A stretch of 64,000 bases of DNA from Nitrospinia bacterium (GTDB lineage Bacteria > Nitrospinota > Nitrospinia > Nitrospinales > JAJDAT01), in assembly GCA_029261715.1 (NCBI GenBank), contig JAJDAT010000030.1, forward strand, positions 1 through 64,000, in the 5' to 3' direction. Positions 28,010-54,985 of the stretch are shown one piece after another. The stretch's first letter is position 1; each line of letters begins with the position of its first letter. The position numbers were made by a program, and so were the translations under genes. The notes below the pieces were generated by a model. The model was not told the DNA's origin and made no database searches. It was given only the letters and a program-made list of their open reading frames with translations.

Positions 28010-28081
28010 GACAATTTCCGTCGTTATCCCTTCTAATTCAATTCTTATCTTTCCTTATCCTCTAACTCTCGGAGGCTTTCA

Positions 28082-28621
28082 ATTCTTACCGACCTTGACG
28101 TAGAATTATTCCACTGGATTTATAGCCTAATTCAAAGCGAGGCATCTCATAAACTATTGGAATCTGTATCTAATCCAAGAAATTTTATCTTTGTTGGGGT
28201 ACTATGCATTCTATCTTTAATAATATTTGAAAAAAGGCGCGGTTTAGTTTTAATAGTCGTCTTATCGAGCGGAGTGGCGTTCAACGACGCTGTTTGCCAT
28301 AACATCTTAAAACCTTTGATCGCTCGCCCCAGACCGTGCCAAACTATTGACTTAAATAAACCCGGCTTGCGATGTTCACATAATTTTTCCTTTCCATCAA
28401 ACCATGCGGGAAACTCGTTTACAGCGGCGACTATGCTTAGTCTTCGGTTTCCTTTAGTTTCTATCCCCGTATACGGGCTAGCTATCACCGTCGGTTTTTC
28501 TAGAATCCATCTTGGCTTGCACTATCCATTGGATATCTTAGGCGGAGCCTTTGTTGGAGGTTTGATGGGTTGGTTTTTCTTCCTTATCTATAGGAAAACA
28601 ATTTCAGCCGCGCAATTGTAA
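28082..28621 (+). CDS. PAP2-superfamily membrane phosphatase (probable ATT start)
   Basis: 179 aa if translation starts at ATT 28082. The phosphatase motif is complete: K-x6-RP in 'LKPLIARPRPC', 'FPSNHAGN' (PSNH instead of PSGH) and 'SRIHLGLHYPLD' (SR-x5-H-x3-D). The first canonical start in frame is a TTG at 28157, but the frame upstream reads 'LTDLDVELFHWIYSLIQSE', the standard PAP2 first helix, and GGAGG at 28071-28075 sits six bases before the ATT; no ATG, GTG or TTG exists there. It likely dephosphorylates undecaprenyl pyrophosphate or a lipid A intermediate, in keeping with the heptosyltransferase gene 9 bases downstream. Confidence 0.85.
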   Translation: MLTDLDVELFHWIYSLIQSEASHKLLESVSNPRNFIFVGVLCILSLIIFEKRRGLVLIVVLSSGVAFNDAVCHNILKPLIARPRPCQTIDLNKPGLRCSHNFSFPSNHAGNSFTAATMLSLRFPLVSIPVYGLAITVGFSRIHLGLHYPLDILGGAFVGGLMGWFFFLIYRKTISAAQL

Positions 28622-53706: not shown

Positions 53707-54276
53707 TTAATTTGGGGCATCATTTAACAAAAACTCTATCGCCTCCAATGTTTCAGGCGACGCCCAGTTTTTCGCGCCATCTACTTTTGCCGTAATATGT
53801 CCCGATCTGCTAACCACATAGGTTATCGGAATTGTGTGAGACTGATATAATCTTTCAGCCTGTCCTTCTTTATCCATTAAAACGGGGAAAGACAACTTTC
53901 GCTCTTCAATAAACCCTTCGACCCCTCCAGCCTTATCTATACTAACAGCTAAAACGGTAAAGCCCTGGGATCGGAACCTTCTATAAAGCTTTTCCAATGA
54001 TGGCATTTCTATTCGACATGGTACGCACCAGGTTGCCCAAAAATTAATTAAAATCACTTCACCACGATGGTCCTTTAAACTCTCACGGTTTCCTTTTAAA
54101 TTAACTAGCGAAAAATCAGGCGCCAAGAAACCGACTTCTGCCTTCACTTGATTTTTTAGCTTTTGAAGTTTAACTTGCGATAGCTCCAATGGCTCTTCAT
54201 TATAATGACTAACCAGAAAAAAAATCGCTAACGCAAATAGGAAAAAGTACAGGCCTATATACTTTTTAATTGGAAT
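53707..54276 (-). CDS. TlpA/ResA/CcmG-like thiol-disulfide oxidoreductase (probable ATT start)
   Basis: 189 aa if translation begins at ATT 54276. 'PDFSLVNLKGNRESL', 'ILINFWATWCVPCRIEMPSLEKL' (CxxC with the TlpA fold) and 'TIPITYVVSRSGHI' are clear. A TTG at 54189 is the first ordinary start, but upstream the frame encodes 'IPIKKYIGLYFFLFALAIFF', a signal anchor. AAAGGAG lies seven bases before the ATT, inside the end of ccmC, with an 11-base overlap. It would reduce apocytochrome disulfides for heme attachment. Confidence 0.88.
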   Translation of the reverse strand: MPIKKYIGLYFFLFALAIFFLVSHYNEEPLELSQVKLQKLKNQVKAEVGFLAPDFSLVNLKGNRESLKDHRGEVILINFWATWCVPCRIEMPSLEKLYRRFRSQGFTVLAVSIDKAGGVEGFIEERKLSFPVLMDKEGQAERLYQSHTIPITYVVSRSGHITAKVDGAKNWASPETLEAIEFLLNDAPN

Positions 54277-54985
54277 AGAAACGCTCCTTTTTTATTTGAT
54301 CAATTTCATCTTTCATCTTTTCAATGCGGACTCTCTGCCCCATTAACAAAAAATACAAAAGTGTAAAAGCTCCCAGTGAAATCATCAAAGTCATAACCAT
54401 AGAGTCATCCATTCCCGCCCCAAACCCTTCTGGAGTGATCATTTTTGGCTTTGGATGGAAAGTCCTCCACCATAAAACGGAAAAATGAATGATGGGAATA
54501 TTAAGAAAACCTGCAATTCCTATTACCGCAGAATATCGCGCTCTCATAGAACCAGCATCTGATTGCAACCTCAACATGATGTACGCGACATAAATCAACC
54601 ATAAGACTAAGGTCGATGTAAGCCTAGCGTCCCAAACCCACCATGTCCCCCAAATAGGCTTAGCCCAAATTGGCCCTGTGATTAAAACAAGAGAACAAAA
54701 CACCACTCCAATTTCGGCAGAAGACTGCGCATAAATATCCCACTCCCGCTCCCGTTTCCATAAATATAAAATACTACTTAAAAAAACGATAAAAAAAGCA
54801 AAAAAGGATAACCAAGCGGAAGGTATATGGTAATACATTATTCGTTGAACCAGCCCTTCCTGCTTTTCAGTCGGCACATAAACAAAAATAGCGTACACCG
54901 TTGCGGAAAATGCAAGAACGGTCAAACCCCATAAAATCCAATTAATCTCTGAATCTTCTTCTTTTTCTTCTAATTCTTCGCTCAC
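54266..54985 (-). CDS. ccmC: heme exporter CcmC
   Basis: 239 aa, GTG start overlapping the ccmD stop as GTGA. Six helices with the heme-handling WWD motif 'PIWGTWWVWDARLTSTLVLWLIYVAY'; 'YYHIPSAWLSFFAFFIVFLSS' holds a conserved His. It loads heme onto CcmE. The C-terminus 'KDEIDQIKKERFYSN' overlaps the next gene's probable start. Confidence 0.92.
   Translation of the reverse strand: MSEELEEKEEDSEINWILWGLTVLAFSATVYAIFVYVPTEKQEGLVQRIMYYHIPSAWLSFFAFFIVFLSSILYLWKREREWDIYAQSSAEIGVVFCSLVLITGPIWAKPIWGTWWVWDARLTSTLVLWLIYVAYIMLRLQSDAGSMRARYSAVIGIAGFLNIPIIHFSVLWWRTFHPKPKMITPEGFGAGMDDSMVMTLMISLGAFTLLYFLLMGQRVRIEKMKDEIDQIKKERFYSN

Follow-up and report, generated by a model that had tools for sequence, protein, structure and literature searches.

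The question raised by this locus is where translation of a tlpA/resA/ccmG-like gene begins when its open frame offers no canonical start codon ahead of the conserved N-terminus. The window, which is the whole stretch of 64,000 nucleotides that was analysed, carries on its minus strand ccmC (54266..54985), coding for a haem exporter subunit-like protein with a Cytochrom_C_asm domain (PF01578, 2.2e-36), and the end of ccmC overlaps the start region of tlpA. The tlpA frame (stop at 53707, minus strand) is open back to 54291, and the first ATG, GTG or TTG within it is TTG 54189, which lies beyond a hydrophobic segment. A preliminary description of this DNA had placed the start at ATT 54276, seven bases after an AAAGGAG site and overlapping the ccmC end by 11 bases, with a membrane anchor encoded before the first TTG. 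These positions were exact (AAAGGAG at 54290-54284, ATT at 54276-54274, ccmC end at 54266), and the anchor was correctly located. Read from ATT, the gene (53707..54276) specifies a product of 189 aa and has orthologues in relatives.

The source genome is a draft of 5.33 Mb in 52 contigs, with completeness of 96.9% and contamination of 3.7%, and its protein-level relatives include entries named Nitrospina and Nitrospinaceae. The whole genomes used for comparison were drawn from the same order, outside the window's own genus and family. Orthologues of ccmC were found in 52 relatives at 67-79% identity. The junction was compared across 46 distinct ccmC-tlpA loci, comprising the window and 45 loci from relatives; the relatives' sequences share descent, and the rows are not independent. 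The 3' end of the 16S was searched for in the assembly and was not found, so a generic anti-Shine-Dalgarno sequence was assumed. The tlpA start site was itself selected in a scan, a procedure that makes coincidences more frequent. Use of AUU starts was surveyed in 1.25 Mb of the window's genome and 1.2 Mb of one relative.

An ATG in the tlpA frame precedes the end of ccmC by exactly 44 nt (position -44) in 43 of the 45 relatives, and the window has kept this codon at 54307..54309 on the minus strand. It lies 33 nt upstream of ATT 54276 and is the ancestral start. The preliminary description had overlooked ATG 54309, because an intervening TAA separates this codon from the open stretch containing tlpA. 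The window has no canonical start left for the conserved N-terminus (ATG 54309 is cut off and TTG 54189 is past the anchor), and in the comparison of orthologue starts that the description had proposed, the relatives start at ATG -44. Selection for the -44 start is visible in the ccmC codon choice of the relatives, where the Asp codon that spells the tlpA ATG is GAT in 43/45, compared with a GAT share of 49% over the rest of these ccmC genes. Except for a TTG at -38 in some relatives, their next canonical codons fall in or after the anchor. An ancestral AUU start of tlpA was ruled out, because the relatives use ATG -44. The remaining two loci (L093 and L101, from relatives G033 and G044 of one genus) have ACG at -44, produced by a GAT to GAC change that is silent in ccmC, together with TTG at -38, from which their tlpA presumably starts. 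This would be another start shift within the same ccmC-tlpA overlap, suggesting that the tlpA start was already mobile in relatives.

The window departs from its relatives at tlpA codon 6, which is TCA or TTA in relatives and TAA (54292..54294, minus strand) in the window. By direct reading, a remnant frame of five codons, ATG AAA TTG ATC AAA TAA (MKLIK*), is left at 54292..54309 on the minus strand. One substitution from TCA or TTA is sufficient to produce this stop, and it is silent in CcmC, where the overlying codon is ATA for Ile. A stop at this place occurs in 1 of the 46 loci, the window being the only one with a stop-making ccmC codon; a form of the Leu/Ile codon that would give TAA or TGA was seen in none of the 45 relatives (1.4e-11 under independence of the rows, an assumption that does not hold). 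By these comparisons the interpretation in the preliminary description is supported in part: the window's tlpA has lost its ancestral start, or else the loss is artefactual, and AUU is a possible rescue and not the ancestral start.

The TAA may be an error of the consensus sequence or the variant of a minor strain, in which case tlpA would start at ATG 54309 as in the relatives. This explanation was considered unlikely. Its appeal lies in the restriction of the stop to a single locus, in the undamaged remainder of the ancestral start, and in the draft state of the genome (52 contigs, 16S end not detected); the TAA and AUU arrangement of tlpA is itself known from this one draft assembly. Weighing against an artefact, the change is a substitution that leaves ccmC in frame, whereas the typical sequencing error is a homopolymer indel, and ATA is a normal choice in this genome, accounting for 22% of its Ile codons. 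A homopolymer indel at the A6 run present at the site was ruled out, as ccmC continues in frame to its normal end.

Separated from the TAA by one base is the Shine-Dalgarno-like AAAGGAG (54284..54290, minus strand). The duplex calculated for ATT 54276 was -9.3 kcal/mol with the assumed generic anti-Shine-Dalgarno sequence, and was the strongest at this place among the 46 loci, the next being -6.2. Between the TAA and TTG 54189, the only near-cognate codons preceded by a strong site are ATT 54276 (-9.3) and, almost as good, ATT 54270 (-9.0), all others having values of -1.6 or weaker. The codon ATT 54276 is spelled by TAT TCN, which encodes Tyr-Ser in ccmC, and most relatives have it too; being forced by these codons, it is in itself no evidence of use as a start. 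The Shine-Dalgarno site requires the codon pair AAG GAG, which makes up 3.0% of the 498 Lys-Glu codon pairs in the genome, and 1.9% of random 16-nt segments of the window reach -9.3 kcal/mol or better. On these figures, and at a site picked by scan, AAAGGAG could be a coincidence. The ATT at 54274..54276 (minus strand) is most likely the surviving tlpA start codon and the best placed of those remaining for an anchored protein. To this extent the ATT start put forward in the preliminary description was retained, AUU initiation being credible in the lineage, but as a replacement for the start that relatives have upstream.

The product itself was found to be intact. It contains an AhpC-TSA/redoxin thioredoxin-like domain (PF00578, 1.2e-27; PF08534, 1.1e-20) and the CxxC active site of the TlpA/ResA/CcmG-like family, in the form of a catalytic CVPC motif (54016..54027, minus strand) within WCVPC, with WCxPC in aligned relatives. 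The N-terminal membrane anchor of this family is present in the frame from ATT, its most hydrophobic 19-residue window (54202..54258, minus strand) having a Kyte-Doolittle mean of 2.05; the relatives are also anchored, and orthologues without an anchor, which would have spoken against the ATT start, were not found. In its anchor, AhpC-TSA domain, CxxC and ccm neighbours the protein resembles the membrane-anchored thiol-disulfide oxidoreductases of the TlpA/ResA/CcmG-like group, among which it is ordinary, the start alone being unusual. It may act as a reductant in cytochrome c maturation, the ccm neighbourhood being the one feature that suggests this role. All 30 residues that are invariant in relatives are kept in the window's TlpA, and the ratio of tlpA-core to ccmC divergence is 1.49, compared with 1.44 +/- 0.11 in relatives. 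The absence of decay in tlpA argues against an old pseudogene.

This lack of damage does not argue against a young null allele, in which the TAA would be real, tlpA silenced or strongly lowered (perhaps covered by other TlpA-like genes) and the Shine-Dalgarno site coincidental. One synonymous ccmC change is enough for such an allele, and since no relative has the TAA, the stop may be recent and a young null would look identical. The genome has ten TlpA/thioredoxin-like matches beyond tlpA. A protein-level scan of genome contigs returned mostly paralogous TlpA-family genes (identity <=48%). The probability assigned to this explanation is nonetheless low, given that a tlpA orthologue is retained in nearly all relatives, that the window's gene has no sign of decay and that its Shine-Dalgarno site is unusually strong.

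The preferred reading, to which a probability of roughly 0.5 is given, is that the ancestral start of tlpA was lost and that the gene is rescued by re-initiation at AUU 54276. The ancestral gene, ccm-linked and coding for a membrane-anchored thioredoxin-like protein, starts at an ATG inside the ccmC end, and a single substitution, silent in ccmC, would have turned its codon 6 into TAA. Ribosomes starting at the old ATG would then terminate after five codons, one base before the strong Shine-Dalgarno site, and those completing ccmC would terminate 5 nt downstream of the AUU. Re-initiation at AUU 54276 by ribosomes of either kind could yield an anchored protein with a cytoplasmic N-terminus 11 residues shorter. 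In E. coli, re-initiation is raised by a Shine-Dalgarno site and falls with the distance between stop and start (PMC2268962). The TAA, one base ahead of the site, and the stop codon of ccmC, 5 nt beyond the AUU, are both placed for re-initiation. Initiation at AUU 54276 and selection of its Shine-Dalgarno site are inferred.

Two further routes to a TlpA product were weighed against re-initiation at the AUU. One is readthrough of the TAA by ribosomes that began at ATG 54309, or else a CcmC-TlpA fusion produced from ccmC through a +1 shift or slippage on the A run; this was judged very improbable. An A6 run is indeed present and the topology of such a fusion is possible, but the run is short and is found also in relatives with a normal start, and none of the known readthrough elements was seen at the site. 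A -1 frameshift at A AAA AAG was ruled out, as it leads into the wrong frame. A start at TTG 54189, the first canonical start remaining in frame, is scarcely credible and was ruled out as the main start, because it has no Shine-Dalgarno site (-1.7 kcal/mol) and would give a soluble cytoplasmic protein (Kyte-Doolittle 19-residue maximum of 1.08) without the anchor that relatives keep.

The predicted arrangement can be compared with known non-AUG starts. In S. aureus, cvfC1 has a conserved and proven AUU start behind a strong Shine-Dalgarno site, and ccpN, with an AUA start, is a recent proven parallel (PMC13009471). The window's tlpA shares with these genes and with E. coli infC and pcnB a strong Shine-Dalgarno site, the absence of a usable canonical start and an expectation of weak initiation (PMC13009471). 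The site is also properly spaced, as in AUU genes (AAAGGAG, 7 nt, -9.3 kcal/mol). Unlike those starts, which are conserved or experimentally proven, the AUU of the window's tlpA is predicted, and its orthologues do not share a non-AUG start (ATG -44 in 43/45). Coupling reporters of the M13 geneV-geneVII type (PMC2268962) likewise have stops within a few nucleotides of the next start and a Shine-Dalgarno site between; the window differs from them in its presumed AUU start and in the five-codon remnant frame, which belongs to tlpA itself.

Comparison with relatives makes AUU initiation credible elsewhere in this lineage, in infC, a PAP2-family gene and a PfpI-family gene. In infC (G000:C20 near 116200, minus strand; L148), ATT stands behind AGGAGG where IF3 genes start, as in E. 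coli, and the codon at the start place is ATT or ATA in many relatives. The PAP2-family gene of the window (28082-28621, plus strand) has ATT at 28082-28084 behind GGAGG at 28071-28075. Its relatives have ATT, ATC or ATA at the same place or one codon on in 28 of 29 cases, the remaining one having ATG three codons upstream; an AAGGA-type site lies upstream in these relatives, and a canonical start nearby is absent in most. By this comparison the non-AUG start of PAP2 is conserved across the order and is a stronger case than tlpA. The preliminary description had counted PAP2 and tlpA as two independent AUU candidates. The first has a non-AUG start that is conserved order-wide, but tlpA cannot be counted beside it as a second conserved AUU gene, because the tlpA case is derived and confined to one genome.

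The PfpI/DJ-1-family gene (G000:C25:207366, plus strand; locus L189 about 7366) has ATT preceded by AAAGG. In 29 relatives the corresponding codon is ATG or TTG, or an ATG lies one codon upstream, and the gene appears to be a second one-genome shift to AUU. Among 253 orthologue pairs sampled, tlpA and the PfpI-family gene had no canonical start in the window's genome, with rsfS a doubtful third; rsfS was set aside as a further AUU case, since it has a TTG with its own AAGGA four codons on. In the reverse test, the relative showed no clear loss of a canonical start.

A more specific version of the preferred reading is offered tentatively, at somewhat less than even odds. In it, the tlpA start was relocated after a nonsense change cut off the ATG, and the gene was kept by AUU re-initiation from a Shine-Dalgarno site whose bases come from synonymous codon choices in ccmC. 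AUU and AUC starts would in this version be commoner in the lineage than in model bacteria (infC, PAP2, the PfpI-family gene and tlpA). If true, a gene whose start is lost can survive by adopting a near-cognate codon instead, the compensating changes being silent in an overlapping neighbour. Gene callers that ignore AUU and AUC would then mis-start or lose genes in these Nitrospina-like bacteria, a point made more firmly by the conserved non-AUG start of PAP2 than by tlpA. As a separate observation, the region upstream of rpsU contains, ahead of the first start codon, a stretch with conservation across families (G000:C25:170476-170791; G031:C1:998305-998590). It reads RKGLF.F.TPFWSGFFLP in one frame and may belong to a conserved RNA leader, or else to a small frame.
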